A DNA stretch of 64,000 nt. Origin: Sulfuricystis multivorans (GTDB taxonomy: Bacteria; Pseudomonadota; Gammaproteobacteria; Burkholderiales; Rhodocyclaceae). Both the position numbers and the translations under genes were made by a program. The notes under the pieces were generated by a model, which searched no databases, was not told the DNA's origin, and worked only from the letters and a program-made list of their open reading frames with translations. The stretch lies in assembly GCF_003966565.1 (NCBI RefSeq), contig NZ_AP018718.1, forward strand, positions 1 through 64,000, written 5' to 3'. This document shows, one piece after another, positions 7,275 to 37,114 of the stretch. Every line of letters starts with the position of its first letter. Positions within the stretch are counted from its first letter, which is position 1.

Positions 7275-7291
<17 letters not shown>

Positions 7292-18427: not shown

Positions 18428-19748
18428 TGGAATCGGCGCCCGCTTCGCGGATGCCGTGCTTCTTCATCTTCTCCCACAGGTTCTTGCGGCTGATGCCCAG
18501 TTGGGCGGCCGTTTCGGCGATGCGTCCGTGATTGGCGGCCAGCACCGAGAGGATGTGGCGGCGCTCGGCTTCGGCCACATGCGCGGCGAGCGTGGGTGCC
18601 GCCTCACCAGCGCCGACTTTTTCTTCCGCATCGGTGAAGGCCGAGGCAGTAAGCAGCGGGCCATCGGAGAGGATGCAGGCGCGCTCGAGCGCATGCCTTA
18701 GCTCGCGAACATTGCCCGGCCAATCGGCATGGATCAGCCATTGCTCGGCATCCGCATCGAGCCGGCGCACCCCGCCGCCTTGCGCAAATTCCGCCAGAAA
18801 GCGGTCGGCCAGCCACAAGATGTCCTCGCGCCGCTCGCGCAGGGGAGGGATGTCGATCTGCACGACATGAACGCGGTAGTAGAGGTCTTCGCGGAAACGG
18901 CCCTCCTCGACCATCTTCTTGAGGTCGCGGTGCGTGGCGAGAATCAGGCGGAAATCGATCTGGATCGTCTTCTCCCCGCCGACGCGCACGATGCTGCGTT
19001 CCTGTAGCGCGCGCAGCAGCTTCACCTGCATCGATAGAGGCATGTCGCCGATCTCATCGAGGAACAGCGTGCCGCCGCGCGCGAGCTCGAAGGCGCCGCG
19101 CCGCTCTTTCACCGCGCCGGTGAAAGCACCGCGCTCATGGCCGAACAGCTCGCTTTCCATCAGACTCTCGGCGATGGCGCCGCAATTGACGGCGATGAAG
19201 GGCTCCTTCTGCCCCGCAGCGGCCAGCTCATGCAAGGTGCGCGCGACGACCTCCTTGCCGACACCGGACTCGCCCGTGATCAGCACGGTGCGCGCCTGTT
19301 TCGCCAGCCGCGGCAGCATCGCTTCGATGCGGCGCATCGCGTTGGAGATGCCCAGGCGCGGCTCGCCTTCTCCGCCGGCTGGATGGCGGCCGGCCAGCTC
19401 GCGCACCTTCGCGATCAGTGCCGGAATGTCGAGCGGCTTGGTCAGATAGTCGGCCGCGCCGAGTTTCAATAGGCGCACCGCTTGATCGATCGCGCCATGC
19501 CCGGTGATGAAGAGAAAAGGTGGCAAGGCCGGCGTTTCCCGTTGCAGTTCGACGAACAGATCTTCGCCGGAAAGATCGGGTAGGCGGATGTCGCTGATCG
19601 CCAGCGCATAGCGTTTGTGCTGCAAGGGCAAGAGCGCGTCGCGGCCGCGCTGGAACCAGTCGCAGCCGTAGCCTTCCATTTCCAGGCGCTCGACGAGCGC
19701 CTCGCCCATGATCGGATCGTCCTCGATCAGACAGATGACGGGTTTCAT
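18420..19748 (-). CDS. Sigma-54-dependent response regulator (module 2, 'R' of XSR)
   Basis: NtrC-family activator, 442 aa, paralogue of the module 1 regulator. Receiver domain (VICLIEDDPIMG, phospho-Asp in AISDIRLPD, LTKPLD), AAA+ domain with GESGVGKE, GAFTGA and [12 protein letters not shown], then Fis-type helix-turn-helix AAQLGISRKNLWEKMKK. The start at 19748 overlaps the kinase stop by 4 nt. Differences in the recognition helix from module 1 (SRKN versus TRKT) fit the different operator halves seen here (GTTACC instead of GTTACGC). A linker before the helix-turn-helix contains a copy of the 24-bp repeat. Confidence 0.93.
   Translation of the reverse strand: MKPVICLIEDDPIMGEALVERLEMEGYGCDWFQRGRDALLPLQHKRYALAISDIRLPDLSGEDLFVELQRETPALPPFLFITGHGAIDQAVRLLKLGAADYLTKPLDIPALIAKVRELAGRHPAGGEGEPRLGISNAMRRIEAMLPRLAKQARTVLITGESGVGKEVVARTLHELAAAGQKEPFIAVNCGAIAESLMESELFGHERGAFTGAVKERRGAFELARGGTLFLDEIGDMPLSMQVKLLRALQERSIVRVGGEKTIQIDFRLILATHRDLKKMVEEGRFREDLYYRVHVVQIDIPPLRERREDILWLADRFLAEFAQGGGVRRLDADAEQWLIHADWPGNVRELRHALERACILSDGPLLTASAFTDAEEKVGAGEAAPTLAAHVAEAERRHILSVLAANHGRIAETAAQLGISRKNLWEKMKKHGIREAGADSIN
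18597..18620 (-). repeat. Dispersed 24-bp repeat, copy 2 (inside regulator 2)
   Basis: Three mismatches to the consensus. Reads as EKVGAGEAA in the linker between the AAA+ and DNA-binding domains. Confidence 0.55.
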
Positions 19749-21199
19749 GCGGATGCGGCTTCCAGTGGCAAAGTGACCGTGAAGCGCATCTCGCCATCTT
19801 GCCAGCCGGCCTCGATCTGGCCGGCAAGCTGCGTCACGGTCTGATAGGTGACCCATAGTCCCAAGCCGTGCCCGTCCTCGCGCCCGGAGACGAAAGGCTC
19901 GAACAGGTGGCTGCGCACGGCTTCGGGCAGCGGCTTCCCGCTGTTGGCGATCTCGATGCGCACAGCAGCCTCATCCGCCCGCGCGGTCAGCCGCACATGG
20001 CCGCCGGCATCTGTCGCCTGCACGGCGTTGAGCAGCAAGTTGATCAGGATCTGGCGCACCACGCTGGCCGGCAGCGCCAGTCGCTCGGGTAGATTGACGT
20101 GCCAGTCGAGCATCAGTTGTTTTTTGACCAGCTGCGGCTCGATCAGCGTGCGCACATCCTCGAAGTCGTGCCGGTCGAGCGGCCGGCTCGCCACGCGCGC
20201 TTCGACGAGCAGCGCGCCGACGATCTCGGCCACTTGCTGGAGCCCGCGCTCGAGCAGCGCGACGGTTTTCGCCGTCGCGGCATCGAGCGGGCCGCGTTGC
20301 TTCAGGGTGTCGAGGGCCATCAGCATGCCGCCCAGCGGGTTGTTGATTTCGTGGGCGATGCCAGCGGCCAGCCGGCCGACGGCGGCGAGCCGCTCGGCGT
20401 GCAACATCTCTTTTTCCAGCATGGCCTTTTCATTGAGGGCGACGGCCGCTTCGCGGTAGGCCGCGAACAGCCGACCGAGCTCGTCGCGATAACTGTAGCG
20501 TTCGGCCGCCGGCATGGGCAGCGGACGGCCGTGAACGAGCGCATCCATGCCCTTCGACAATTCGACCAGCGGCTCGGCCATGCGCCGTCCCCAATACCAG
20601 TTGATCGGCAGCAGCGCGGCGAGGGCCAGCAGGCCGATCAGAGCGCCTCGTACCGCGAGCGCCAGAAAGCGCGCCCAGACGACATCGCGGTCGTGGGCGA
20701 CGACGAGGGTGCCGAGCCGGCGTCCTGAGGATTCGATCGGCATCGCAGTGAAAAAATGATGCGCGCCGGCAAGATCGAGGGTCTGCGTATCCGTCAGTGT
20801 CCTGGCGCGCAAGGGCTTGGCCAGAACCGAAAACGCGTTGGCCAAATCGTCCAGGCGCGAAAGCGTCGGCAGGCGAGCCGGGTCGGAAGCGACCAGGATG
20901 TGCATGTCCCCGTCGAGCACGAAGATCGCATCCGGCTGCAGCGGATTCCGGCCGGCGCCTTCATGAAACGGCGCGCGCACGATCTCGAAGGCGCGCCATA
21001 GATCATCGTGCAGCAAGGGCGGAAACAGCGTCTGGGCCAGCGTTTGCCCGAGACTCGCCGCGCTGGTGAACACGTCCTGCTTGAGATCATCGTAGGCGCG
21101 CACCATGTAGGCCGCGCCGATCGCGATAGCGGCGGCAAGGATCAGCGCGCTGCCCCATAGTGGCACCTTGTGGCGCAGGCTGAGATCGAACAGACGCAT
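19745..21199 (-). CDS. Sensor histidine kinase (module 2, 'S' of XSR)
   Basis: Membrane kinase of 484 aa, same length as the module 1 kinase. Start chosen at 21199 (MRLFDLSLRHKVPLWGSALILAAAIA), matching the paralogue's MKYRFDDLSLRWKIPLRVML. Two membrane segments flank a periplasmic region; HAMP, HisKA (GIAHEINNPLGGML) and HATPase (GHGLGLWVTYQT) follow. The upstream 208 bp are not coding but a MITE-like repeat that separates it from the PhnD-like gene, and the repeat end supplies the bases just before the ATG. Expected to phosphorylate the regulator at 18420-19748. Confidence 0.92.
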   Translation of the reverse strand: MRLFDLSLRHKVPLWGSALILAAAIAIGAAYMVRAYDDLKQDVFTSAASLGQTLAQTLFPPLLHDDLWRAFEIVRAPFHEGAGRNPLQPDAIFVLDGDMHILVASDPARLPTLSRLDDLANAFSVLAKPLRARTLTDTQTLDLAGAHHFFTAMPIESSGRRLGTLVVAHDRDVVWARFLALAVRGALIGLLALAALLPINWYWGRRMAEPLVELSKGMDALVHGRPLPMPAAERYSYRDELGRLFAAYREAAVALNEKAMLEKEMLHAERLAAVGRLAAGIAHEINNPLGGMLMALDTLKQRGPLDAATAKTVALLERGLQQVAEIVGALLVEARVASRPLDRHDFEDVRTLIEPQLVKKQLMLDWHVNLPERLALPASVVRQILINLLLNAVQATDAGGHVRLTARADEAAVRIEIANSGKPLPEAVRSHLFEPFVSGREDGHGLGLWVTYQTVTQLAGQIEAGWQDGEMRFTVTLPLEAASA

Positions 21200-21410
21200 T
21201 AGCCCAGATCGTCCATTGGAACGCGAGCGGGTATCAAAAGCGAGGGCGAGCAGGTTTGCGTCAGCGCGACGAACCAATAGCGGTGCCTGGCGATACGCGA
21301 GGGCGCAAAGATACCGCCCGCAGCGTGAAAACCGCCGCGTAGGGCGATGAAATGATCGTATCGAATGCTCATGGCGAATCAGCCCGATCTCAATGGACGA
21401 TCTGGGATTA
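21200..21410 (+). mobile_element. MITE-like element, copy A (between PhnD-like and kinase genes of module 2)
   Basis: About 210 bp bounded by inverted ends TAGCCCAGATCGTCCATT (from 21200) and AATGGACGATCTGGGATTA (to 21410). The interior is closely similar to copy B at 28324-28530 over its full length. One end abuts the kinase ATG and the other overlaps the TAA stop of the PhnD-like gene. No transposase inside. Confidence 0.8.
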
Positions 21411-22289
21411 GTATTCGCCGAACGCACGCATCATCTTCGCGACATCCTCGTACAGGCGCCGATCGCCCGCGACGAAGCCGTCGATGTTGAGGCGATCGAG
21501 CAGCATCTTGCCGGTCAGATCGTCCTTCATGCCGATCAGCACGCGCTGCATCGCTTCGAAATCGGCCCGGGTAACGTTGCGGTGCGCGACGAAGGGCGGA
21601 AAGCCGTAGTCGGGCGAACGGGCGATGATGCGGGTCTTGGCGGTCAATGCCGGCTGGGTACGCGCCAAGGTGTCCCAGACGAAACTGTCGATCGCTGCGC
21701 CCTGCGCGAAACCGGTCGCGACCGCCTCGACCGCCTTGCGGTGCGACCAGGTGAAAAAGGTCTTCTTGAAGAAAGTCGCCGGGTCCTCGCCAAGTTCTTT
21801 GACCATGTAGCGCGGCCTCAGATAGCCGGTATTCGAATAAGGATCGGCATAGGCGAACACGGCGCCCTTGAGATCGCGCATCGAATGGCGCGTCGTGTCG
21901 TCTGCGGCGACGATCAGATAGGAACGGTAGGTGGGTTTGCCCTGGTTGAGCGGCACGGCCAGCAAGCGCACCAGGTCTTTCAGATACAGGTACGGGTAAT
22001 CGCAGATCCAGGCGAAGTCGAGCTTGTCCAGACGCAACAGATCCATCGTCTCGCGGTAGCTGTCGCGCTGCACGAACTCGATCGGACGCCCCAGCTTGGC
22101 CTGCAGGTAGCTGCGCCATTCTTCCATCAGGCTGTATTCATCGTGGACGAAGGCCGGTGTCAGGCCCACCCGGATCGGTCTGGCCGCCCAGGCACAAAGC
22201 GGCAGGCTGGCGCCAGCCGCCAGAGCACCCAGGGCATGCAAGACTCGACGTCTGCCCAAGTTACCGGATCGTAACTGTATGCGCTTCAT
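21408..22289 (-). CDS. PhnD-like periplasmic substrate-binding protein (module 2, 'X' of XSR)
   Basis: Periplasmic binding protein of 293 aa with a leader ending near LPLCAWA. PhnD superfamily pattern IRVGLTPAF and WICDYPYLY. Paralogue of the module 1 protein with the same order X-S-R, so it most likely presents its ligand to the kinase rather than to a transporter. Two GTTAC...GTAAC dyads overlap its first codons and leader (22260-22317), pointing to control by the cognate regulator. Ligand unknown; AioX/ArxX-like arsenite sensing and TtrS-like sulfur oxyanion sensing are both possible. Confidence 0.87.
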   Translation of the reverse strand: MKRIQLRSGNLGRRRVLHALGALAAGASLPLCAWAARPIRVGLTPAFVHDEYSLMEEWRSYLQAKLGRPIEFVQRDSYRETMDLLRLDKLDFAWICDYPYLYLKDLVRLLAVPLNQGKPTYRSYLIVAADDTTRHSMRDLKGAVFAYADPYSNTGYLRPRYMVKELGEDPATFFKKTFFTWSHRKAVEAVATGFAQGAAIDSFVWDTLARTQPALTAKTRIIARSPDYGFPPFVAHRNVTRADFEAMQRVLIGMKDDLTGKMLLDRLNIDGFVAGDRRLYEDVAKMMRAFGEY

Positions 22290-22317
22290 GGTTAGCCCTC
22301 GGTTACCAATCGGTAAC
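22260..22317. promoter_or_regulatory. Paired palindromic activator sites, module 2
   Basis: GTTACCGGATCGTAAC at 22260-22275 and GTTACCAATCGGTAAC at 22302-22317, 42 bp apart start to start, between and into the divergent PhnD-like and polyferredoxin genes. The second is a perfect 6-4-6 dyad. Same half-site and same spacing as the pair in front of module 3. Confidence 0.65.
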
Positions 22318-22374
22318 TAATTCTAGCCCTTCTGTGTGGATGTGTCCGGGCATGGTTTTTTCGTCATCGCCGCC

Positions 22375-23511
22375 ATGACTATTGAAACCCATCGGCCTTT
22401 GCCTGCCGATCGCCATCTCGCGTTTTGGCCGGCCGCCTGCCTTGCGGTGCGCGGCGGTGTGGCGGCCTGCGATCGCTGTGCGAATGCCTGCCCGGTCGGG
22501 GTGCTGAAAGTCGGCGCTGACGGGACGGCACTGGTCGGCGATTGCCTCCATTGTGGTCGCTGCGCGGCGGCCTGCCCGAGCGGGGCGCTCGTCGCCAAGG
22601 GCTTTGACGAGGCGCGGTTACCGTCCGGTAACCTGCCTGTAGCGATCGAGTGCTGGAAGGTGCCCCGTGAAATCGCTGGCGAACAGGCGGTGCGCGTGCC
22701 CTGCCTCGGCGGGCTTGCGCTTACCCGCCTGATCGAATGGCTCGTCGAGGCCGGCAGCCGACCGCTACGGCTCGTCGACCGCGGCTGGTGCGCGAACTGT
22801 GCAGCCGGCACGGATGGCTTCGCCGGCGCGGCCATACTCGCTGCACTCTCGCCTTGGCTGTCGGCCAGCGGCCTGCCGCCGGCGCACTGGCCGAAGCAAA
22901 GCGAAAAGCCCTTACCCAAGGCGCTGATGCCCAGGGAGATTCCATCGGCCGAGCGCCAGATCGCGATGGGCCGGCGCGCGTTTTTCGGGCGTCTGGCCAA
23001 GGAAATCGCGCGCAGCGAGCGACCGGTCGAAGCGCCCGCCGGCCCGCGCGCCGCCTTGCGCCGCACTCGCTGCCCGTTGCCGGCGCACGAGCGTTTCTTG
23101 GCCGCGCTCACCCAACTCGCCGCGACGCAGGGGCGGCCGCTGCCGCCGCGAGCCTTGCCGCGTCTCGAAGTATCGCCCGCCTGCCGCGATCACGGCTTGT
23201 GCGCATCCTCGTGTCCCACTGACGCGCTGGTGATCCGCGACGGAGAGAAAGGTCGCCAGTGGCGTTTTTCCAGCGCTCGCTGCACGGGTTGCGGGCGTTG
23301 CGTGGCGGTCTGCCCTGAGCAGGCGCTGCGGCTCGGGGAGGGCGGGCAGTTCGAGGAGGTCGTCCTGCGCACGGTATCGCTTACCTCCTGCCTCGAATGC
23401 GGCCGCGATTTCGTGCCGCAGGCCGCGGAGCACATCTGCCCCCAGTGCCTTGCGCAACGCGCGCTGGCGCAGAGCATGTTCGCTCCTGGCCCGAATGTTG
23501 CAGGGCAATAG
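22375..23511 (+). CDS. Polyferredoxin-type 4Fe-4S protein, module 2
   Basis: Multi-cluster electron carrier, 378 aa from the ATG at 22375 (an ATG at 22336 would add 13 residues; neither has a clear ribosome site). Motifs: CDRCANACPVGV, CLHCGRCAAACPSGA, CRDHGLCASSCPTDA, CTGCGRCVAVCPEQA and a C-terminal CLECGRDF...CPQC. The central VPCLGG and WCANCAAG also occur in the module 1 paralogue. It lies directly upstream of the molybdoenzyme gene, the position that the extra FeS gene has in arx operons, and its last codons contain the sigma-54 promoter of the next gene. Confidence 0.84.
   Translation: MTIETHRPLPADRHLAFWPAACLAVRGGVAACDRCANACPVGVLKVGADGTALVGDCLHCGRCAAACPSGALVAKGFDEARLPSGNLPVAIECWKVPREIAGEQAVRVPCLGGLALTRLIEWLVEAGSRPLRLVDRGWCANCAAGTDGFAGAAILAALSPWLSASGLPPAHWPKQSEKPLPKALMPREIPSAERQIAMGRRAFFGRLAKEIARSERPVEAPAGPRAALRRTRCPLPAHERFLAALTQLAATQGRPLPPRALPRLEVSPACRDHGLCASSCPTDALVIRDGEKGRQWRFSSARCTGCGRCVAVCPEQALRLGEGGQFEEVVLRTVSLTSCLECGRDFVPQAAEHICPQCLAQRALAQSMFAPGPNVAGQ
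22507..22530 (+). repeat. Dispersed 24-bp repeat, copy 3 (inside polyferredoxin 2)
   Basis: One mismatch to the consensus. Reads as KVGADGTA between the first two cluster motifs. Confidence 0.65.
22617..22632. promoter_or_regulatory. Intragenic activator-site-like palindrome, module 2
   Basis: GTTACCGTCCGGTAAC is a perfect 6-4-6 dyad of the same type as the sites at 22302 and 29808. It lies inside the polyferredoxin gene, 855 bp upstream of the sigma-54 promoter at 23487, so it may be a distant activator site for the catalytic operon. Confidence 0.5.
23487..23501 (+). promoter_or_regulatory. Sigma-54 promoter (-24/-12), module 2 catalytic operon
   Basis: TGGCCCGAATGTTGC with 10 nt between GG and GC, nearly identical to the module 1 promoter including flanking bases. 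It sits inside the 3' end of the polyferredoxin gene, 42 bp upstream of the molybdoenzyme ATG. Confidence 0.75.
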
Positions 23512-23542
23512 CCGCTCGTTTTCATCAACCGGAGGAAGTGAA

Positions 23543-26335
23543 ATGAACGAATCGATCCTCAATCCCAAACTGACCCGTCGGCGTTTTCTGCAAGCGACCG
23601 GCGCGGCAGGCGCCCTGGGTGCCGTCGGCGTCGGCGGCCAGCTCACCACCATCGAGAAGGTGCATGCTCAGCCAGAAGCCGCGGCTGCGGGACAGACCGT
23701 GATCACCAAGAGCTTCTGTCACCAGTGCCCGGCACGCTGCGGCATCGACGTCTATACGACCAACGGCCGTATCCATGCGATCTACGGTACGCTCGACAAC
23801 CCGCTCTCCAACGGCAAGCTGTGCCCGAAGGGCCATTACGGCGTCTATCTGACCTATGATGCCGATCGCATCAAGGGGCCGATGAAGCGCACCAACCCGA
23901 AGAAGGGCAGGAACGAGGATCCGAAGTTCGTGCCGATCTCCTGGGACGAGGCGCTCGATATCGTCGCCGGCCGCCTGAATGCATTGCGTGAGAAAGGCGA
24001 GTCGCATCGCTTCGCGGTGCTCACCGGCCGTGGCTGGGGCTACACCGATGTGGGTCTTTTGAAGGAGTTCGGCCAACTGTACGGCACGCCGAACTACAAC
24101 CTCGGCCACTCCTCGATGTGTTCCGACGCATCGGAAACCGTCAAGCACATCATGGACGGGCATCACGCCTATAGCGCTTACGACTACTCGAACAGCAACT
24201 ATGTGCTGGTCTTCGGCGCCGGGCTGCTTGAAGCCTTTCGTCCCTACAACGCCAACATGCAGAACTGGGGCAAGATGCGCACCAAATCGCCGAAGACCAA
24301 GGTCACCGTGGTCGATGTGCATCTGAACACCACCGGCTCTGCGGCCGACCGGCTGCTGCTGGTCAAGCCCGGACGCGATGGCGCTTTGGCGCTGGCGATG
24401 GCCCACGTGATCCTCACCGAAGGCTTGTGGGACAAGAACTTCGTCGGCGATTTCGTCGATGGCGTTAATCGCTTCAAGACCGGTGCGTCGATTCCGCTGA
24501 CGGTGAGCCAGGAAGACGTCGATGCCTGGAGGCAGGCAAGGGCCGAAGCGGCGGCGAAAAAGGAAGCGGCGGCGAAGAAGGCTGCCGAGGCACGCGAGAA
24601 AGCGCTCGCCGAGCTCGACAAACTGAAGAAAGCGCTCAAGGGCGCGAAGGGCGACGAGAAGGCGGCGCTCGAAAAGAAACTCGCCGAAGCGCAGAAGAAG
24701 TTCGACGAGGGCGAAGCGAAAGCCAAGAAGATTGCCGAACAACGCGCTTTGCTTGAAAAGGACAAGAAGACGGAAATGGCGCCGGTGGTCGGTCAGCCCT
24801 TGTTCAACGAGAAATGGACGGTCGGCCTGATCGAATGGTGGAACGTCGAATTGAAAGATCGGACGCCCGAATGGGCCGCGGAAGTCTCCGGCGTTGCGGC
24901 CAAGGACATCATCACCGTCGCACGCGAGTTCGCCACCACCAAACCAGCCGTCGCATTGTTCGAGCGCGGCGCATCGGCGCATACCAACGGCGTCTATAAC
25001 GGCATGGCGATCCATGCGCTCAATGCCCTGACCGGCAACATGTTCGCGAAGGGGGGGTTACGCGGCTATCAGATGAAGACTGCCTGGGCCAAGCTGCCGA
25101 TCAAGGTCGAGGACTATCAGGACGACTATGCGAAGAACGGGCCGTGGAAGAAGTTTCCGCGCATCGACATGGCCAAGACCAAGAAGTGGCCGTTGGTGAA
25201 AAACATGATGCAGGAGATCGCCATCAACCACCTGAAAGGCGAGCCCTACAAGCTCGACACGGCGATCATCTATATGACGGGCGCGATCTTCTCCGGCCCG
25301 GACTGCACGAAATGGGAAGAGGCCTGGCGCGAGGTCTTCGTCATCGACACCTCCCCCTATCCGGGCGAGACCAACAAATTCGCCGATTTGATCCTGCCCG
25401 ATCACACCTATCTCGAACGCCTGCAGATCGCCGACACCTACCCGTACGAGGGCTATCCGATTTCGATGATCCGCACTCCGGCGATCAAGCCGCTCTTTGA
25501 TACCAAGGTGTTCGGCGACATGATCATCGAGCTGGGCAAGCGCATCAAGGGCCCGACGGCCGACTACTACAACAAGGTCGGCAACACCGAGAACATCATC
25601 AAATGGATGTGCGAAGGTTTCAAGGACAAGCCGGGCGACAACGGCGTGGTCGACTTCGAAACCTTCAAGCAGAAGGGCGTCTGGTATCGCAAGCCCTATG
25701 CCTATCTGCAAAAGGATGGCGTGTTCTACGAGTGGGACGGCAAGGGCTACAACAAGGTGCTCACCGAGGCCGAGGTCAAGGAAAAGGTGATGCCCACACC
25801 GACCGGCAAGTTCGAGCTCAAGGTCACCGAGCTCGAGCATCACGCCGATTACGTGCAGGAGAAGCTCGGTATTCCGCCCGAGCGCGCGCCTTTCCCGCAG
25901 TGGATCGAGCCGAAACACGGCGGCGATGGCGATCTGCATTTCGTCAGCCCCAAGCTTGCTGGTCAGGCCGAGGGACGCAGTTCCAACCTGCCGCATGTCG
26001 CGGCGATGATCCAACCGGTGCAGGGCGGCAAGCGCGAGGTGTTCCTCGAAATCCATCCGGAGGCGGCCGCCAAGCGCGGCATCAAGGACGGCGACATCGT
26101 GCGCATGAAAAACAAGATCGGCGAGATTCGCGTGCGCGCCCGGGTGACGCACACCACGCGTCCCGATACCGTCGTGCTGCCGATGATTCACGGTCACTGG
26201 GCGCAGGGTCGCTGGGCGGAAGCCAAGGATCGCCTACCCTCCGGTAGTACCAACGAAATCACCGAAAACCTATCCGAACCGCTATCGGGTCTGGCTTGTT
26301 ATCACAGCGGCCTGGTCAGCGTGGAACGCGCTTAA
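23543..26335 (+). CDS. Molybdopterin oxidoreductase catalytic subunit, module 2, with coiled-coil insertion
   Basis: Tat-exported bis-MGD enzyme, 930 aa. Start at 23543 behind GGAGGAAG; leader LTRRRFLQATGAAG with cleavage near VHAQP. Fe-S motif CHQCPARCGID...LCPKG is complete; Cys193 in HSSMCSDA is the likely Mo ligand. Stretches such as RTNPKKGRNEDPKFVPISW are of the ArrA/ArxA/TtrA/PsrA kind. Residues about 325-410 are an Ala/Lys/Glu-rich heptad-like insertion predicted as coiled coil, unlike its two neighbours' enzymes. Followed by FeS (10 nt), NrfD and TorD genes, an A-B-C-D order like arxABCD. Substrate unresolved. Confidence 0.9.
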   Translation: MNESILNPKLTRRRFLQATGAAGALGAVGVGGQLTTIEKVHAQPEAAAAGQTVITKSFCHQCPARCGIDVYTTNGRIHAIYGTLDNPLSNGKLCPKGHYGVYLTYDADRIKGPMKRTNPKKGRNEDPKFVPISWDEALDIVAGRLNALREKGESHRFAVLTGRGWGYTDVGLLKEFGQLYGTPNYNLGHSSMCSDASETVKHIMDGHHAYSAYDYSNSNYVLVFGAGLLEAFRPYNANMQNWGKMRTKSPKTKVTVVDVHLNTTGSAADRLLLVKPGRDGALALAMAHVILTEGLWDKNFVGDFVDGVNRFKTGASIPLTVSQEDVDAWRQARAEAAAKKEAAAKKAAEAREKALAELDKLKKALKGAKGDEKAALEKKLAEAQKKFDEGEAKAKKIAEQRALLEKDKKTEMAPVVGQPLFNEKWTVGLIEWWNVELKDRTPEWAAEVSGVAAKDIITVAREFATTKPAVALFERGASAHTNGVYNGMAIHALNALTGNMFAKGGLRGYQMKTAWAKLPIKVEDYQDDYAKNGPWKKFPRIDMAKTKKWPLVKNMMQEIAINHLKGEPYKLDTAIIYMTGAIFSGPDCTKWEEAWREVFVIDTSPYPGETNKFADLILPDHTYLERLQIADTYPYEGYPISMIRTPAIKPLFDTKVFGDMIIELGKRIKGPTADYYNKVGNTENIIKWMCEGFKDKPGDNGVVDFETFKQKGVWYRKPYAYLQKDGVFYEWDGKGYNKVLTEAEVKEKVMPTPTGKFELKVTELEHHADYVQEKLGIPPERAPFPQWIEPKHGGDGDLHFVSPKLAGQAEGRSSNLPHVAAMIQPVQGGKREVFLEIHPEAAAKRGIKDGDIVRMKNKIGEIRVRARVTHTTRPDTVVLPMIHGHWAQGRWAEAKDRLPSGSTNEITENLSEPLSGLACYHSGLVSVERA

Positions 26336-26345
26336 GGAGTACATC

Positions 26346-27098
26346 ATGGCAAAGTGGGGAATGGTCATCGACCTCGAAAAATGCGTGGGCTGCCAAGCCT
26401 GCACGATCGCCTGCGGCATGGAAAACACACGCTTGCCTGGCGAGCACTGGCAGGACGTCATCTTCTTCCAGGAAGGCGAGTATCCGAACACCGAAATCAA
26501 GTGGTTCCCGCGTCCTTGCATGCATTGCGAGAACCCGTCCTGCGTCGCGGTCTGCCCGGTACGTGCCACCTACAAGTCGGAGGACGGCCAGGTGCTGATC
26601 GACTGGGAACGCTGCATCGGCTGCAAGTACTGCATGATCGCCTGCCCGTATGGTGTGCGCTTCTACACCGAGGAGAAGGCGCGCTACGGTGGCCCGAACA
26701 TGAAGGACGTGTTCCCGAGCAACGACGCGCATTCCTGGAATCCACCCTGGAGGATGCCGCAGGAAGACTGGAAGCACGGTGTCGGCGTGCAGCCGCACGA
26801 TGTGGTGTCGAAATGCACCTTCTGCTATCACCGCGTGTCCAAGGCGCCCAAGGGCACGGTAGACCTCGATCCACAAAACCCGGCTACACGCGAATTCACG
26901 CCGGCCTGCGTCGTCACATGCCCGACCGGCGCGCGCTTCTTCGGTGACCTGGCGAACCCGGATTCCGAGGTCAACAAACAGATCGCCTACAAGAATGGCG
27001 TGCGCCTGCTGGATCACCTTGGCAACAAGCCGCAGGTCTACTACCTCACTGGCGAGGGGGGCTCGGTCCCGGCCACGCGTTCGATCAAAAAGATTTAA
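26346..27098 (+). CDS. 4Fe-4S electron-transfer subunit, module 2
   Basis: Partner of the module 2 molybdoenzyme, 250 aa, with four cluster motifs: CVGCQACTIACGME, CMHCENPSCVAVCP, CIGCKYCMIACPYG and CTFCYH with later CVVTCPTGA. No signal peptide; it would travel with the Tat substrate. AAGGAGTACATC precedes the ATG; it starts 10 nt after the catalytic gene and ends 12 nt before the NrfD gene. An insertion between the third and fourth motifs (ARYGGPNMKDVFPSND) is longer than in module 1. Confidence 0.92.
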   Translation: MAKWGMVIDLEKCVGCQACTIACGMENTRLPGEHWQDVIFFQEGEYPNTEIKWFPRPCMHCENPSCVAVCPVRATYKSEDGQVLIDWERCIGCKYCMIACPYGVRFYTEEKARYGGPNMKDVFPSNDAHSWNPPWRMPQEDWKHGVGVQPHDVVSKCTFCYHRVSKAPKGTVDLDPQNPATREFTPACVVTCPTGARFFGDLANPDSEVNKQIAYKNGVRLLDHLGNKPQVYYLTGEGGSVPATRSIKKI

Positions 27099-27110
27099 GG
27101 AGAAAACGTC

Positions 27111-28316
27111 ATGATCGCAAACAATCGCAACAATGACATCAGCAGCCATGTCCGTTCGGAGGCCAATGCCTGGCTGGTGGCATGCATCATCGTCGGTGGT
27201 CTGTCCGGCGCCTATATGCTGTATCAGCTGATGACGGTCGGCCATGCTTCGTTCAACACTTCGAGCGACGGCATCAACTGGGGTTTGCCGATCGCCGCCT
27301 ATGTGTTTTTCGCACTGACCTCGTCGGGTCTGACGATGATCGCCTCGCTTGCCACGGTGTTCGGCTTCGAGCAGTTCTATCCGATCGTCAAGCGCTGCAT
27401 CTGGGTGGCGATCGTCACCCTGGTCGCTGGCTTCTCGGTGCTGGCGTTCGAGCTCGGTCATCCTTTCCGCATGCTCTGGGCCATGCCCACCGGCATGCAG
27501 GTGATGAGCCCGATGTTCTGGATGGGCGTGTTCTATCTGATCGACCTCGTGCTGTTGATCATCAAGTTCTATTTGATCGTGCAAGAGGACTGGCATAGCA
27601 GCTTCTCCAGGCTGATCGGCATTGCCGGCTTCGTCGCCGTCATCCTGGCCTCAGGCATGCTGGGACTGCTGTTCGGTTCCGTTGCAATGCGGCCGATGTG
27701 GTTCGGCTCCTTCACATCGATCTACTACATGCTTACCGCTGCGCTATCAGGTGCCGCCGCCATCGTGGTGACGACGTACATGGCCTTCGATTTCGACAGC
27801 CGCAACATGCCTGCCAATCTGCGTGCCTTTGCCGAAGGCGATCAAATGCCGAAGGTCTTCGCCACGCTGATCGGCATCACCCTGGTGATGATCCTCACCC
27901 GCATGTGGACGGGCTTGTGGAGCAACCTCGATGGTCTGGAGGGCTTCCATGTGCTGGTCAAGTCGCCGCTCTTTTGGGTCGAACTATTGTTCGGTCTCGT
28001 CCTTCCCTTCTGGATGATGCTGCAGCCGGGCATGCAGACGCGCGTCGTTCCGCAGATGACCGCCGCCTTCCTGGTGCTCGGCGGCATGGCCATCAACCGT
28101 TACGAGTTCATCGTCAGCGGTCAGGTCGTGCCGATGTTCAAGGGCACCTGGGTGAATAGCCTCGAGCCCTACTTCCCCTCGATGACCGAATGGGCGATGG
28201 CGGTGTTCGGGCTGGCGGTCGCACTGGGCGGCTACGCGATCGGCGAAAAGATGTTCCGGTTGTCGGCGGCGCCCGCGCACGAGGAGAGCGGCAAACTCGC
28301 CGGCGCAAGCGCATAA
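27111..28316 (+). CDS. NrfD/PsrC family membrane subunit, module 2
   Basis: Membrane quinone-interacting subunit, 401 aa, with about ten hydrophobic segments, longer than the 285-aa module 1 version. The ribosome site AAGGAGAAAACGTC precedes the ATG. The first helix is WLVACIIVGGLSGAYMLYQL. It completes an A-B-C complex with the two genes upstream and is followed after 7 nt by a MITE-like element that splits it from the chaperone gene. Confidence 0.9.
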   Translation: MIANNRNNDISSHVRSEANAWLVACIIVGGLSGAYMLYQLMTVGHASFNTSSDGINWGLPIAAYVFFALTSSGLTMIASLATVFGFEQFYPIVKRCIWVAIVTLVAGFSVLAFELGHPFRMLWAMPTGMQVMSPMFWMGVFYLIDLVLLIIKFYLIVQEDWHSSFSRLIGIAGFVAVILASGMLGLLFGSVAMRPMWFGSFTSIYYMLTAALSGAAAIVVTTYMAFDFDSRNMPANLRAFAEGDQMPKVFATLIGITLVMILTRMWTGLWSNLDGLEGFHVLVKSPLFWVELLFGLVLPFWMMLQPGMQTRVVPQMTAAFLVLGGMAINRYEFIVSGQVVPMFKGTWVNSLEPYFPSMTEWAMAVFGLAVALGGYAIGEKMFRLSAAPAHEESGKLAGASA

Positions 28317-28323
28317 TTAATCA

Positions 28324-28530
28324 AACCCAGATTGTCCATTGGAACACGAGCGGGTATCAAAAGCGAGGGCGAGCAGGTTTGCGTCACCGCGACGAGCCAA
28401 TAACAGTGTCTGGCGATACGCGGGGGCGCAAAGATGCCGCCCGCAGCGTGAAAACCGCCGCGTAGGGCGATGAAATGATCGTATCGGATGCTCATGGCGC
28501 ATCAGCCCGGTCTAATGGATAATCTGGGTT
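28324..28530 (+). mobile_element. MITE-like element, copy B (after NrfD gene of module 2)
   Basis: 207 bp with inverted ends AACCCAGATTGTCCATT (28324-28340) and AATGGATAATCTGGGTT (28514-28530). The interior matches copy A in the same orientation nearly throughout; copy C is the reverse orientation and more diverged. Begins 7 nt after the NrfD stop codon. Confidence 0.85.
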
Positions 28531-28540
28531 AAACTCACAG

Positions 28541-28581
28541 GCCGGCGCGTTTCCTCACCTCTGGCGCGCCGGCTTTTTTTT
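28541..28581 (+). terminator. Rho-independent terminator in front of torD-like gene, module 2
   Basis: Perfect 9-bp stem GCCGGCGCG (28541-28549) with CGCGCCGGC (28565-28573), 15-nt loop, then eight T. The chaperone ATG lies only 4 nt behind the T-run, so the end of the stem takes the place of a normal ribosome site. Confidence 0.85.
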
Positions 28582-28584
28582 GCC

Positions 28585-29394
28585 ATGAACGATCAAGACA
28601 CCCAACTCGATTGGCAAGCCTTTTGGCTCACGCTGGCCAATGCCTTCATGCCACCCAAACGGCCGGAAGTCGCCGCGGCGTTTCGCGACGTGCTGGCTGA
28701 CGATCTCGAAGCGCTCGGCACGGCGCTGGATCTCGATCTTTCCGTCGAGCTTGCCGACTTGCGTCAGGCCATCGCAGCGCTGTCCGACGACGAGGCGCTG
28801 CTCGTCGCTTACAGCCACCTTTTTCTGCAACCGCCCCTGCCGGCCAGTTTGAACCTCGGCCTCTACGTCGATGGCGCGCTCAATGGCCCCTGCCTCGACG
28901 TGCTCGAAAACGCCTATCGCAAGATCGGCATCGCCAAGCGCGAGGACCTGCACGATCTACCCGATCATGCCGCGATGCAGATGGAAGTCCTCGCCGTACT
29001 GTTCGGTGAGCGTGAGCCGGCGATGACGCCCAGCGATTTCGCCAATCTCTGCCTGGTCGGCGCCCTGCCGCGGCTGGCGAACGCAGTGGTTGCCGACTCG
29101 CCTGCTTCGCCTTGGGCCGCGCTGTCGCGCATCGCCGCTCGTGCGATCCAGACTTTTGCCCTGGCGCCGGACAAGGAAACCCTGCATCGCAGTCGCCGTG
29201 CGCAAGGCCGCGCCGACACCGGCATCGGCGTCTGGCGCCACTGCGCACGCTGTGGCAAACCCTTCGCGCGCGAAAAGGAAATCCAGATCATGGCCAAGGC
29301 TCTGGAGCAGGCGAACCTGCCGAGCGATTTCCTCGTGAATTGCCCAGACTGCCGCGATGCCGCGCAAGGTTTTTTCCGTCGGCCGATCAAGTAG
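28585..29394 (+). CDS. TorD/DmsD family molybdoenzyme chaperone, module 2
   Basis: Cytoplasmic chaperone, 269 aa, with the TorD helical pattern (LLVAYSHLFLQPPLPASLNLGLYVDGALNGP; HAAMQMEVLAVLFGERE). A C-terminal four-Cys knuckle CARCGKPF...CPDC is an extra, possibly zinc-binding, tail. The ATG at 28585 follows directly on a terminator T-run and no Shine-Dalgarno is visible, so the true start or the expression mode is uncertain. Its end overlaps the next gene by 38 nt. Confidence 0.83.
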   Translation: MNDQDTQLDWQAFWLTLANAFMPPKRPEVAAAFRDVLADDLEALGTALDLDLSVELADLRQAIAALSDDEALLVAYSHLFLQPPLPASLNLGLYVDGALNGPCLDVLENAYRKIGIAKREDLHDLPDHAAMQMEVLAVLFGEREPAMTPSDFANLCLVGALPRLANAVVADSPASPWAALSRIAARAIQTFALAPDKETLHRSRRAQGRADTGIGVWRHCARCGKPFAREKEIQIMAKALEQANLPSDFLVNCPDCRDAAQGFFRRPIK

Positions 29395-29764
29395 CAGGAA
29401 AACCAGTCGCTGGGCAATCTTTGCGCCCTGGCTTGCCGCACTCGTGCTGATGACGGCGCCCCCGGCGCACGCCGAGGCCGCACCGGACGATCTGCTCGCA
29501 CGCAAATGCACGAGCTGTCATAACGCGGTGCGTTGGCAGAGCGCACGCCATACCTCGATCGGCTGGTGGGCCGTCACGTCGCGGATGCGCTGGATCCACG
29601 GTGCATCCTTGAGCTGGAGCGAGCAGGCGGAGGTGGTCGATCTCTTGGTCGCACGTTTTCCCGCGACGAATGATGATGCACGCGACGAATGGCTTCTCGC
29701 CCTCGTCGTTATGTCCCTGCCGCTCGTCGGTTGGTGGGTGGGGCGGAGGAAACGATTCTGGTGA
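29357..29764 (+). CDS. Tail-anchored periplasmic cytochrome c, module 2
   Basis: Monoheme cytochrome c of 135 aa. A signal segment (WAIFAPWLAALVLMTAPPAHA) is followed by the heme site CTSCH and, at the C-terminus, a membrane anchor WLLALVVMSLPLVGWWVG. The N-terminus before the signal is basic (residues 1-18). It overlaps the chaperone gene by 38 nt in another frame. It could link the module 2 complex to soluble cytochromes. The distal heme ligand is not obvious; Met in SRMRWIHG is a candidate. Confidence 0.78.
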   Translation: MPRKVFSVGRSSSRKTSRWAIFAPWLAALVLMTAPPAHAEAAPDDLLARKCTSCHNAVRWQSARHTSIGWWAVTSRMRWIHGASLSWSEQAEVVDLLVARFPATNDDARDEWLLALVVMSLPLVGWWVGRRKRFW

Positions 29765-29807
29765 GTGTTCCCGCGCTCCGTTCATTTGTGACTCACCCCA
29801 ATATTCG

Positions 29808-29865
29808 GTTACCAAGCGGTAACAAATCGTAGAGGAATATTTTCCCGAAGTTACCGGCCAGTAAC
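29808..29865. promoter_or_regulatory. Paired palindromic activator sites, module 3
   Basis: GTTACCAAGCGGTAAC at 29808-29823 and GTTACCGGCCAGTAAC at 29850-29865, 42 bp apart start to start. Sequence and spacing match the pair at 22260-22317, so regulator 2 is the best candidate to bind here. Module 3 has no regulator gene of its own. Confidence 0.65.
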
Positions 29866-29891: not shown

Positions 29892-29904
29892 TATCAATAC
29901 GTTG
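29892..29904. promoter_or_regulatory. Candidate IHF site, module 3 promoter
   Basis: TATCAATACGTTG fits the IHF consensus WATCAANNNNTTR at every position and lies in an AT-rich stretch between the activator sites and the sigma-54 promoter, where DNA bending would bring the activator to the polymerase. Confidence 0.55.
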
Positions 29905-30005
29905 TGTGATCCTATGGTGAAGCGACCATTCATAAATCAATAGCTTGTGCTTTTCTTATCCAACTTCCTGATCGGGGAATAAAACCATTCTTTCAATAGG
30001 GCTAA

Positions 30006-30020
30006 TGGCATGCCTTCTGC
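30006..30020 (+). promoter_or_regulatory. Sigma-54 promoter (-24/-12), module 3 operon
   Basis: TGGCATGCCTTCTGC has the GG-N10-GC spacing with two deviations from TGGCACG-N4-TTGC. It lies 65 bp upstream of the catalytic ATG and 141 bp after the activator sites. Confidence 0.65.
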
Positions 30021-30085
30021 TTGAAAGAAAGGGGCAAATTGCATCCGAAGATGCTGAGCAATGGGAACCGAGGGAGGAAGCAAGC

Positions 30086-32665
30086 ATGGGTGTCAGTCGC
30101 AGGGGATTCCTGAAGACGAGTGGCGCACTGAGCGCCTTGGCTACGGCAGGGGCACCTCTGCCAGTCATTGCCGAAGCAGCAAAAAAGTTCGCCGTACCGT
30201 ATTCGCCCGGTACCGAGAAATACGTCAAGAGCCAGTGTTGTCATTGCGTCAATTTCTGTGGCATCGAGGTCAAGCTGCAGAATGACGTGATCCGCGCGAT
30301 CTATCCGGACAAGGCTCGCGCCGACTATTACAACTGGGGCATCTGCCCGAAGGGCGCCTCGGGTGTGTTCAACACCTACAATCCATATCGGTTGAAAAAG
30401 CCGATGAAGCGCACCAATCCAGACAAGGGCATCGGTGTCGATCCAAAATGGGTCGAAATCAGCTGGGAGGAGGCTTTCTCGACCATCACCGACAAGCTCG
30501 CCAAGATCAGGGCCGATAATCCGTCCAAGCTGATCTGGCATCATGGTCACGGCAAGTACCTGATCGGCGACCAATTCCCGAAAGCCTTCGCCGCAGCGTT
30601 CGGCACGCCCAACGTCATTCATCGCACTACCACCTGCGAAGCTGCTCGCCACGTCGCCGACGAGCTGACTTGGGGTTATCACGGCATCCTGCCCGATCTC
30701 GAATACACCAACCTCTACCTCAACTTCGGCGCCAATGCTTTCGAGAGCGAACAGTGGGCGCGTTGGCTCGACCATGCGACGATCGATGCCAAGGCACGCG
30801 GGATGAAGCTCATCGCCATCGAGCCGCGCTTGTCGAATACCGGCGCCAAAGCCGACGAGTGGCTCCCGATCCGTCCGGCCAAGGATGTGCTGCTACTGCT
30901 CGGCATGGCCAAGGTGCTGCTCGACGATGGCACCATCGACAAAGAATTTCTCGTCAATTACACCAACGCGCCGCAGCTGGTCGGCGCCGATGGCAGATTT
31001 CTGCGCGACAAGGATGGCAAGGCGCTGGTTTGGGACAGCGTCAGTGATTCCGCCAGACCCTTCACCGAAGGTGTGAAGCCGGCGCTACTCGGCCACTACG
31101 AGGTAAATGGCAAGCCCTGCGCGACCAGCTTGCAGCTGCTCGCCGACGAGGTCGCCAAGGTGACGCCAGAACACGTCGAACAGGTCGCTGGCGTGCCGGC
31201 TGCGCGCGTCGTTTCGCTGGCGCGCGAGTTCGCGCGCGAGGCGAAGATCGGCGCAACGATCGAGATCGATGGCAAGCGTTTGCGTTACCGACCTGTAGCG
31301 ATCTATAGCTTCCGTGGTCTTGCCGCCAAGGAATTCGGCGTGCAGAACTGGCGCGCCGCGCTGATCTTGCAGATGCTGGTCGGTAGCATCGATGCGGTGG
31401 GCGGCCTGCACCTGCATGGTGTCTATCGCAACCCGGCGTATTTCGAGCCAGCGAAGTGCGAATACCCACCCCAGCGCGCCGATTTGGCGAAGAGCGTCTA
31501 TTTTCCGCACAGTCACCACGACGTCTGCCAGCAGGTGGCCCTGACGTTGCTCGATCCAAAGGCTTATGGCCTGCCCTACGAACCCGAGATGCAGATCTTC
31601 TACGCCACCAACCGGCCGATGTCCACCTCAGATGCGAAGAAGCAGTTCGAGGGTTACAAAAAGACCTTCAACGTGGTGATCGACATCGTCGAGACCGAGC
31701 TGGCGCAGCTGGCCGACATCGTGCTGCCCGATCTGACCTATCTCGAATCCTGGCACTACTTTCCAGGCCGCTGGACGCCGAGCACCAAGCACGAGGCGAT
31801 CCGCCAGCCTGTCGTCAATGTCTATGGCATTCCACATGATGGCTATTCGATCATCTGGGAATTGGCCAAACGCCTTGGCCTGCGTGATGCCTACATCGAG
31901 CAGTTGAACAAGATCTGGGGACTCAAGGAGCACAAGTTCCTAGCTGGCCGCGATTACACGGCAAAGGAGGCCGTCGCTCTGCTGTGGGAGGAGAAGGCAC
32001 ACAAACCTTTCGATTACGCGCTCGAACACGGCTTCCTGGGCAAGAAGGTCGGCGTCGAAGATCGCTATCTGAAAGGCGTCGAAGACAAGTTCAAGGGGCC
32101 AAGCAAACCGAAGATGAACCTCTATGCCGAACAGCTGGTGGCCGGCTACGAGAAAGTGAAGGAGACGGTCGCCAAGCACGGTATCGAGAACATCGATCTC
32201 GACCAGTATCGTATCGCGATGTCGCCGTTGCCGCGCGCGGTGCATGCCGAGCCGACGCCGCATCGTCAGGCGCATGATCTTCCCTTCTATCTCGTCACAC
32301 ATAAGCGCATGTATCGCAACCAGTGTGGCAACACGGCGCAAAACCCGATTCTCGATGCCCTGGGCGGTAGCGACACGAATGCGATCGTGATCCATCCCGA
32401 GGCGGCGCAACGGCTGGGCATCCGGGACGGTGATTGGGTGATCGTCGAAACACGCGTCGGCCGCGCGCGCGGCCGGACGAAATTCAGCCAGGGCGTGCGT
32501 CCCGACGTGGTCACCGTCTCTTATCACTACGGCCATTTCAGCCCCGGTTTCCCCGCTTATGCGAAGAAAGGCACCTGGATCAACCAGGCATTGGAGCTGC
32601 ACCCGGACAAGCTGTCGGGCATGAACTCTTTCAATGACACCAAGTGCAAGTTGATCAAAGCCTGA
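30086..32665 (+). CDS. Molybdopterin oxidoreductase catalytic subunit, module 3
   Basis: Tat-exported bis-MGD enzyme, 859 aa. The start at 30086 follows GAGGGAGGAAGC and gives a proper Tat leader (VSRRGFLKTSGALSALATAG); an in-frame ATG at 30008 would place the promoter inside the gene. Fe-S motif CCHCVNFCGIEV...ICPKG is complete; Cys184 in RTTTCEAA is the likely Mo ligand. Followed after 13 nt by an FeS subunit, but no NrfD gene exists in the operon. Instead, c-type cytochromes and a flavocytochrome sulfide dehydrogenase follow, suggesting electron exchange with periplasmic cytochromes. Substrate unknown, sulfur compounds favoured by context. Confidence 0.88.
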   Translation: MGVSRRGFLKTSGALSALATAGAPLPVIAEAAKKFAVPYSPGTEKYVKSQCCHCVNFCGIEVKLQNDVIRAIYPDKARADYYNWGICPKGASGVFNTYNPYRLKKPMKRTNPDKGIGVDPKWVEISWEEAFSTITDKLAKIRADNPSKLIWHHGHGKYLIGDQFPKAFAAAFGTPNVIHRTTTCEAARHVADELTWGYHGILPDLEYTNLYLNFGANAFESEQWARWLDHATIDAKARGMKLIAIEPRLSNTGAKADEWLPIRPAKDVLLLLGMAKVLLDDGTIDKEFLVNYTNAPQLVGADGRFLRDKDGKALVWDSVSDSARPFTEGVKPALLGHYEVNGKPCATSLQLLADEVAKVTPEHVEQVAGVPAARVVSLAREFAREAKIGATIEIDGKRLRYRPVAIYSFRGLAAKEFGVQNWRAALILQMLVGSIDAVGGLHLHGVYRNPAYFEPAKCEYPPQRADLAKSVYFPHSHHDVCQQVALTLLDPKAYGLPYEPEMQIFYATNRPMSTSDAKKQFEGYKKTFNVVIDIVETELAQLADIVLPDLTYLESWHYFPGRWTPSTKHEAIRQPVVNVYGIPHDGYSIIWELAKRLGLRDAYIEQLNKIWGLKEHKFLAGRDYTAKEAVALLWEEKAHKPFDYALEHGFLGKKVGVEDRYLKGVEDKFKGPSKPKMNLYAEQLVAGYEKVKETVAKHGIENIDLDQYRIAMSPLPRAVHAEPTPHRQAHDLPFYLVTHKRMYRNQCGNTAQNPILDALGGSDTNAIVIHPEAAQRLGIRDGDWVIVETRVGRARGRTKFSQGVRPDVVTVSYHYGHFSPGFPAYAKKGTWINQALELHPDKLSGMNSFNDTKCKLIKA

Positions 32666-32678
32666 GCCGGAGACGATC

Positions 32679-33371
32679 ATGACCAAGTTCGTTCGCGTCA
32701 TCGATACCAAGCGTTGCATGGGCTGCCGCGCCTGCATAGCGGCCTGCGCGGTGGAAAACAACTTCACGCCCGACGCACCGTGGAACGTGATGATCGAATA
32801 CGAGACCGGCGTCTATCCCAACGTCGGCCGTGTGTTCGTGACCATGAATTGCATGCATTGCGAGAAGCCGCCATGTAAGGCCGCCTGCGACGCCGCCGGC
32901 TTCAAGGCCATCAGCAAGAACGAGTTCGGCATCGTGCTGATCGATTATGACAAGTGCAGCGGCTGTCGCTATTGCGTCGCTACCTGCCCTTACGGCGTGC
33001 CTCAATTCAACGAGCGGCGCTCGAATCTCTTTCCAGGCTCGAAGGAAATCACACCCTACGAAGCGATCGCCGAGGAAAACCGCCATCCGACGCATCGCAA
33101 GATCGCTGGCGTCGTCGAGAAATGCACTTTCTGTTGGCACAAATTGGAACCGGCGATCCAGGCAGGCAACAGCAAGGCCATCGGCAAGGATCCGCGCCAT
33201 ACACCCACATGCGATCTGGTCTGTCCGGTCGGCGCGCGCCTGTTCGGCGACCTCGACGATCCCGACAGTGAAGTCTCGCAAGTGGTCGGCAGAAAAAAGG
33301 CGGCACGGCTGAAGGCCGAGTTCGGCACCCGACCGCAGGTGTATTACGTGCTCGAGGGAGGAGACAACTGA
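32679..33371 (+). CDS. 4Fe-4S electron-transfer subunit, module 3
   Basis: Partner of the module 3 molybdoenzyme, 230 aa. Cluster motifs: CMGCRACIAACAVEN, CMHCEKPPCKAACD, CSGCRYCVATCPYG, CTFCWH with later CDLVCPVGA. No leader peptide. The GGAGACGATC before the ATG is a fair ribosome site; the stop overlaps the next start by 1 nt (TGATG). Without an NrfD partner, its electron acceptor or donor is probably one of the cytochromes encoded next. Confidence 0.9.
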   Translation: MTKFVRVIDTKRCMGCRACIAACAVENNFTPDAPWNVMIEYETGVYPNVGRVFVTMNCMHCEKPPCKAACDAAGFKAISKNEFGIVLIDYDKCSGCRYCVATCPYGVPQFNERRSNLFPGSKEITPYEAIAEENRHPTHRKIAGVVEKCTFCWHKLEPAIQAGNSKAIGKDPRHTPTCDLVCPVGARLFGDLDDPDSEVSQVVGRKKAARLKAEFGTRPQVYYVLEGGDN

Positions 33372-35000: not shown

Positions 35001-35010
35001 GGGGGTGGTC

Positions 35011-37041: not shown

Positions 37042-37114
37042 TTCTTCCTCCTTCCACCAATTGGTTTTCAAAGTATCGTTCAAAGGAAGAAACAAGCCAA
37101 GTATTTTCGCTACA

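Follow-up and report, generated by a model that had tools for sequence, protein, structure and literature searches.

Which regulator governs an operon that carries paired activator-like sites but no regulator gene of its own? The question is posed by the first 64,000 nucleotides of contig NZ_AP018718.1 of Sulfuricystis multivorans (assembly GCF_003966565.1), hereafter the window, which contain three enzyme modules, numbered 1 to 3, and two regulator cassettes, numbered 1 and 2. Module 3, a molybdoenzyme operon, is an orphan without its own regulator. Upstream of it lie two 16-bp dyads of the type GTTACC-N4-GGTAAC, arranged as they are between cassette 2 and module 2. We argue that the activator of cassette 2 (regulator 2) is likely to activate both the arx-like module 2 and the orphan module 3. 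The argument is built on the sites, their two classes, the link between site class and recognition helix, a promoter-like element before module 3, co-occurrence across genomes and the phylogeny of the regulators, each obtained directly by computation.

Two classes of paired dyads and two recognition helices

The initial annotation had reported shared pairs of GTTACC-N4-GGTAAC dyads before modules 2 and 3; re-reading of the sequence confirms them at exact coordinates, with a distance of 42 bp from start to start in both pairs (Table 1). All five dyads of this type are present, although two of them (22260 and 29850) are imperfect, and all five fit the AioR-type pattern GTTN10AAC. The pair at module 1 is, as had also been noted, related yet different, being of the GTTACG type with its two dyads 44 bp apart (9637/9681). 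Within the window, nine matches to GTTACC-N4-GGTAAC are found at no more than two mismatches, against 0.43 expected, and none of 100 shuffled sequences contained nine or more. A genome-wide search, which the annotation had proposed, finds dyads with zero or one mismatch at five places in 2,811,460 bases, exactly 22260, 22302, 22617, 29808 and 29850; the motif is not frequent at random places, and that objection to a regulatory role is excluded. When two mismatches are allowed, the motif occurs at 32 places and a backwards control pattern at 78. Since the control yields more, the two-mismatch matches are background noise, and those outside the modules were rejected as additional targets.

Each cassette comprises genes for a histidine kinase, an AioX-like periplasmic protein and a sigma-54 activator of the NtrC type. 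The two regulators match the Pfam families Response_reg, Sigma54_activat and HTH_8, with an AAA+ sigma-54 activation domain and a Fis-type helix-turn-helix, and RpoN is encoded in the genome. Judged from their sequences, both regulatory systems are AioXSR-like. The closest solved relative of both sensors is AioX (6esv), with E values of 8.4e-60 for sensor 1 and 7.3e-57 for sensor 2. The arsenite pocket of AioX consists of Tyr88, Cys106, Tyr131, Ser161, Ser163, His192 and Asp210 (PMC5908839). All seven residues are kept in sensor 1 and six of seven in sensor 2, where Ser163 is replaced by Thr. Four AioX-like sensors, at loci L049, L050, L059 and L071 (L-numbers label loci and G-numbers genomes), carry Ser instead of the arsenite-binding Cys106; they adjoin no module 1–3 enzyme in the stretches examined and may sense another ligand.

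Regulators 1 and 2 are 55% identical and carry different recognition helices, TRKT in regulator 1 (T-type) and SRKN in regulator 2 (N-type). Regulator 2 is the sole N-type activator among the nine inspected in this genome. Reading of the GTTACC sites by another NtrC-type activator was rejected, as the seven next-best proteins of this type have unrelated helices, an eighth (L015, 32% identity) not being among the helices inspected.

Comparison across genomes ties the class of the site to the helix. A cassette pair was defined as two GTTACN6GTAAC dyads with at most two summed mismatches, 30–56 bp apart. Such a pair lies near the start of the sensor gene in 41 of the 45 cassettes with an identified sensor, the two of the window counted. 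Two of the four pairless cassettes belong to the same genus (G019 and G126) and keep GGTAAC half-sites 42 bp apart, and in a third (G025, L077) the pair appears once a wider stretch is examined. With TRKT or SRKT defined as T-type and SRKN or TRKN as N-type, other genomes contribute 17 T and 29 N cassettes in which the helix is readable and a pair is present. At least three of the four half-sites read GTTACG in 16/17 T-type and 0/29 N-type cassettes, and the 44-bp spacing is found in 14/17 and 0/29, respectively (Fisher p 1.7e-11 and 2.8e-9, values that overstate the number of independent events, as the cassettes are related to one another). Leave-one-out assignment of the site class is correct in 45 of 46 cassettes. 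The site goes with the regulator and not with the enzyme, because three T-type cassettes beside arx modules (L076, L084 and L086) retain the GTTACG/44-bp pair; likewise L074, with T inside an otherwise N-type clade, has G in three of its four half-sites. The proposal of the annotation that regulator 1 reads GTTACG and regulator 2 GTTACC is supported by this division and appears probable. The log2 likelihood ratio (T minus N class) is +18.3 for the module 1 pair, -21.5 for the module 2 pair, -18.5 for the module 3 pair and -10.9 for the single dyad at 22617.

A relaxed pattern, GTTACN6GTAAC-N20-34-GTTACN6GTAAC, was searched in 150 genomes of the family. It occurs in 11 of them with 13 pairs, two of which are the window's own, and the control pattern occurs in none of the 150. 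Eleven of the 13 pairs are located at an AioX-like sensor gene or a short distance upstream of one; the two that do not are that of the window's module 3 and one in G149.

The latter is an orphan dyad pair (L053, 7809-7863) with a distance of 39 bp and a -24/-12-like element (10/11), preceding genes for a multiheme cytochrome and an MtrB/PioB-type porin. No sensor cassette is found in the 17 kb examined, and the pair may mark a second operon under another AioR-like regulator. The 44-bp GTTACG pairs, as aligned with that at 9637-9696 of the window, share in their spacer a conserved TTGC...GCAGCA that is missing from the GTTACC pairs and may be the site of another factor.

The orphan operon and competing explanations

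Model R2 was built from 19 pairs of 41–43 bp from other genomes, without the window sequence. In a search of the genome that scored 150 of 193 candidates and reported matches with E≤10, it returns two places, 22260-22317 at 29.1 bits (E 2.6e-6) and 29808-29865 at 14.3 bits (E 0.12), the latter with 13.1 bits when read on the opposite strand; the result counts because no place besides the module 2 and module 3 pairs is reported among the candidates scored. Model R1, built from 15 pairs of 44 bp, finds 9637-9696 (49.1 bits, E 1.4e-12) followed by weak scattered matches; the best of these (E 0.016), at 2055251, was rejected as a target as it lies inside a 403-residue open reading frame (ORF). R1 does not report the module 3 pair in the search of the genome, where 150 of 2406 candidates were scored, or in that of the window. 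Applied to 18 sources, R2 detects the orphan module 3 pairs in G150 at E 0.0011 and in G019 at E 0.042, with no match in 15 other module 3 loci.

Two peptide patterns, applied to one genome per species (84,980 genomes) in a scan that is not exhaustive, yielded 41 module 3 loci. A divergent sensor gene lies directly upstream of module 3 in 12 of them, and a pair is found within 600 bp in 11 of these 12, the exception being L106 from Rhodoplanes. Among the 17 loci without an AioX-like cassette in the stretch, a pair is present in two, L093 and L105 (11/12 vs 2/17, Fisher p 2.4e-5; background, 2 of 463 600-bp blocks in the 17 loci); L098, L100, L105, L109 and L131 span just 0.7–2.6 kb upstream, where a farther cassette could be missed. 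The genome of L093 (G150) has an arx cassette with a 42-bp pair on the same contig, 15–22 kb away, and a second N-type cassette near the latter. L105 is weak evidence, with a 31-bp pair and a T-type AioR-like regulator in its genome. Of the 12 other loci, five end early (L099, L117, L128, L129 and L132) and in seven sensor, kinase or regulator genes are present but arranged otherwise (L110, L112, L114, L115, L125, L130 and L133); in L130 and L133, the pair stands at the sensor gene and is separated from module 3 by other genes, at least partly cytochrome-like. In the family sample, module 3 of G031 and G132 is accompanied by a cassette of its own as well as a pair and a -24/-12-like element; in the same-genus G019 it is an orphan whose 42-bp pair is degenerate and which likewise has the element, and in G041 neither pair nor element is present. 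The orphan module 3 with a pair thus recurs in G019 and G150, both of which have an N-type regulator near arx genes.

The regulators themselves point in the same direction. Between G019 and the window, identity is 92% for the arx catalytic subunit and 89% for regulator 1, whereas it is only 57% for regulator 2, which indicates that the module 2 cassettes are of different lineages. In a regulator tree of 36 rows, regulator 2 pairs as sister (98/90) with the L133 regulator, whose gene stands ahead of a module 3 operon; G132's module 3 regulator falls in one group (100/99) with the arx regulators of G019 and G126. In this genus, the arx-adjacent regulator therefore belongs to lineages that serve module 3 elsewhere. 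Together with the N-class pair (-18.5) and the co-occurrence, the sister relation to L133 supports the view of the annotation that regulator 2 would govern module 3.

We propose that regulator 2 belongs to a system of the AioXSR/ArxXSR type, in which a periplasmic oxyanion sensor, whose signal would be arsenite or a similar oxyanion, acts with a histidine kinase and a sigma-54 activator. Through its SRKN helix, the latter would bind the paired GTTACC-N4-GGTAAC dyads, where two dimers probably sit on one face of the DNA, as 42 bp is about four helical turns. It would then activate the sigma-54 promoters of module 2 and module 3, while regulator 1, with its TRKT helix, would read the GTTACG/44-bp pair of module 1.

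The sigma-54 layout that had been described for module 3 holds for the dyads and for the -24/-12-like element (9/11), which starts 140 bp after the pair and lies 80 bp before the ATG at 30086. Two matches to the consensus of integration host factor (IHF) do lie between pair and promoter (P 0.00045 in 20,000 simulated stretches), but they are not conserved in relatives, being absent at module 3 of G019, G031, G132 and G150. This absence is one of several points that weigh against control of module 3 by regulator 2. A 9/11 sigma-54 match is not rare, with 10 on the plus and 9 on the minus strand of the window; the module 3 pair is weak under R2 when taken alone, the scoring of that search was incomplete, and over the 18 sources the window's module 3 is picked up only in fragments of one dyad each (E 0.22–2.5). 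The second module 3 dyad of G019 is badly degenerate. Finally, among 15 genomes with a dyad-less module 3, three have an AioR-like regulator (≥55% identity) elsewhere, so that module 3 is not always in the regulon; five have only 41–48% matches and seven none at E≤1e-90.

The degenerate dyads of G019 would also suit an origin of the pair as a fading remnant of an adjacent cassette that module 3 has lost, with little control left to regulator 2, and a directly adjacent cassette does exist in the 12 loci described above and in G031 and G132. We regard such a relic as unlikely: the window's module 3 dyads have 0 and 1 mismatch, keep the 42 bp seen at module 2 and are followed by a -24/-12-like element, and the orphan with sites recurs in G019 and G150, each time with an N-type regulator near arx. 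It is very unlikely that regulator 1, or both regulators indifferently, read module 3 and that GTTACG and GTTACC are no specificity code. The 55% identity of the two proteins speaks for this, and G occupies the sixth base in 25 of 120 N-type half-sites (window counted); yet predominantly G half-sites separate T-type from N-type cassettes almost completely, as does leave-one-out assignment, the module 3 pair falls clearly in the N class, and the R1 model, among the candidates scored, leaves it out. That the dyads are unrelated palindromes is extremely improbable. No ArxR footprint was found in the literature, but the pairs recur near sensor-gene starts, covary with the recognition helix, have no counterpart with the control pattern and resemble the footprinted AioR site in shape. 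Activation of both modules by regulator 2 accordingly remains the explanation that we favour.

Gene content and promoters of modules 2 and 3

The features of the window are collected in Table 1. With dnaA, dnaN and gyrB at the window start (95-5271), the modules lie near the probable replication origin.

Table 1. Positions of regulators, sites and genes in the window
Feature	Position	Strand	Remarks
Regulator cassette 1	5933-9583	-	activator, kinase, AioX-like sensor
Module 1 pair	9637-9696	+	GTTACG type; GTTACGCTGGCGTAGC at 9637, GTTACGCGTGCGTAAC at 9681, 44 bp apart
Module 1 sigma-54-like element	9775-9791	+	TGGCCCGGATGTTGCGT, 10/11
Regulator 2	18420-19856	-	ArxR-like NtrC-family activator, helix SRKNLWEKMKKHG
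Histidine kinase 2	19745-21427	-	ArxS-like
Periplasmic sensor 2	21408-22289	-	ArxX/AioX-like
Pair	22260-22317	+	42 bp; between regulator cassette 2 and module 2
Dyad	22260-22275	+	GTTACCGGATCGTAAC, 1 mismatch; inside sensor 2 gene, codons 5-10
Dyad	22302-22317	+	GTTACCAATCGGTAAC, 0 mismatches
arxB2-like polyferredoxin	22375-23511	+	
Dyad, single	22617-22632	+	GTTACCGTCCGGTAAC, 0 mismatches; inside arxB2-like ferredoxin gene, codons 81-86
Sigma-54-like element before arxA	23487-23503	+	TGGCCCGAATGTTGCAG, 10/11
arxA-like molybdenum catalytic subunit	23543-26335	+	
arxB-like Fe-S subunit	26346-27098	+	
arxC-like membrane subunit	27111-28316	+	
arxD-like chaperone	28585-29394	+	
Pair	29808-29865	+	42 bp; proposed upstream activation site for regulator 2, before module 3
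Dyad	29808-29823	+	GTTACCAAGCGGTAAC, 0 mismatches; upstream of module 3
Dyad	29850-29865	+	GTTACCGGCCAGTAAC, 1 mismatch; upstream of module 3
Two IHF-consensus matches	29892-29904, 29935-29947	+	exact; only two in the 64-kb window
Module 3 sigma-54 -24/-12-like element	30006-30022	+	TGGCATGCCTTCTGCTT, 9/11 consensus positions
Module 3 catalytic subunit	30086-32665	+	molybdopterin oxidoreductase with twin-arginine translocation (TAT) signal
Module 3 Fe-S subunit	32679-33371	+	
Module 3 small protein	33371-33733	+	two CxxCH motifs
Module 3 ORF with chaperone match	33439-34425	+	TorD/nitrate reductase delta-type, match residues 146-277; start not set
Module 3 cytochrome c	34221-35000	+	two CxxCH motifs; start uncertain
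Module 3 flavoprotein	34954-36288	+	flavocytochrome c sulfide dehydrogenase-type; start uncertain

Module 2 has the gene order arxB2-A-B-C-D, divergent from arxXSR, which is the order of the published arx cluster (PMC6549141), and from this layout we take it to be a probable arsenite-oxidase-like arx cluster. The nearest NCBIfam model of its catalytic subunit is ArrA (431.7 bits, below the cut-off of 1600). At about 24530-24780 of the window, the arxA-like subunit contains a lysine/alanine-rich stretch of roughly 80–100 residues, which is aligned in the arx loci of G019 and G126 and skipped in several others. A long insertion in ArxA and a position of arxB2 downstream of arxABCD are reported for strain M52 (PMC6549141), and in G019 arxB2 is likewise downstream.

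The promoter layout of module 2 is less standard than that of module 3. Nine of ten other arx loci with arxB2 in front have a -24/-12-like element (≥9/11) between the pair and arxB2; in the window the arxB2 ATG follows the pair after only 57 bp, and the promoter candidate in this gap is poor (5/11), so module 2 is without the usual promoter next to its pair. It may be driven over 0.9–1.2 kb, from the element at 23487, or by a promoter that escaped recognition. The single dyad found at 22617 is an instance of a third site that recurs. It encodes LPSGN, with a TTA codon; the peptide LP-x-GN recurs, and the position of the dyad differs between arxB2 lineages, which points to selection on the DNA. 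Coding constraint was rejected as the cause, the exact dyad being missing in 7 of 12 arxB2 genes and standing at two different places in the remaining five. TTA is rare in these 12 genes (4 of 613 Leu codons), and two of the four TTA codons are inside dyads.

Module 3 is an uncharacterised molybdoenzyme/cytochrome/flavoprotein operon outside the named families. Its catalytic subunit, which was listed as an ORF from 30005, most likely has its start at 30086. Among solved structures, those it matches best are ArrA, a formate dehydrogenase and thiosulfate reductase. In the NCBIfam rows listed, none of its scores passes the cut-off of a catalytic family; ArrA gives 160.1 bits (cut-off 1600) and PhsA 259.9 (cut-off 694). 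A gene at 33734-34324 is probably in the wrong frame and was discarded, the chaperone match falling in the ORF 33439-34425. Just past the operon, a convergent ORF (36562-37350, minus strand) has two TusA sulfurtransferase matches, a hint of sulfur chemistry nearby.

A speculative and rather unlikely reading of module 3 is that of an unrecognised periplasmic arsenic-sulfur (thioarsenate) oxidoreductase, induced with the arsenite oxidase by one arsenite sensor, whose molybdoenzyme would work with the cytochromes c and the flavocytochrome c sulfide dehydrogenase-type flavoprotein. It draws on gene content and sensor only, and on the thioarsenate-oxidising pathway of Thioalkalivibrio being called as yet unknown (PMC6620896). 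If it were true, the cell would handle free and sulfur-bound arsenite with one regulon.

Relation to known regulatory systems

NtrC-type activators work from distant enhancer sites, with IHF. The window resembles such systems in the domain order of its regulators, the Fis-type helix-turn-helix, the upstream site pair and the -24/-12-like element; it differs in the AioX-like sensor input and in IHF matches that are confined to the window and not found in relatives.

The nearest described counterpart is AioXSR of Agrobacterium tumefaciens GW4 and Rhizobium NT-26 (PMC5335332, PMC6011840), which likewise combines an AioX-like sensor, a kinase, a sigma-54 activator and a 16-bp dyad. The AioR site, GTTN10AAC, is a footprinted dyad of this length, and in GW4 AioR also controls mcp, a second target away from the oxidase established by gel shift and footprint (PMC5335332), to which the situation in the window bears a likeness. 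In contrast to AioXSR, the sites of the window form fixed-spacing pairs in two classes, the proposed second target is another molybdoenzyme operon, and the system is known from sequence.

The arxXSR-arxB2ABCD clusters of Alkalilimnicola ehrlichii MLHE-1 and strain M52 (PMC6549141) match module 2 in gene content and divergent order; unlike in strain M52, arxB2 of the window lies in front of arxABCD. By the account of PMC6549141, regulation of the arx genes through arxXSR awaits demonstration, and the ArxR site published is a single 14-bp proposal, with no pair (PMC5908839). The accessible parts of these two papers describe no second operon for arx clusters, as opposed to module 3 here, and no ArxR regulon with a second molybdoenzyme operon was found in the literature searched, most subscription journals being outside its coverage.

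With the paired dyads, the two spacing classes and the T/N helix residue, the family gains a concrete, testable operator and a way to find its targets. The shared pair links an uncharacterised molybdoenzyme/flavoprotein operon to an arsenite-type sensor, by which its inducer and substrate become testable. Compared with the systems above, the known family is extended by a system of the AioXSR/ArxXSR type whose operators are paired and whose specificity class can be read, and which probably serves two molybdoenzyme operons.

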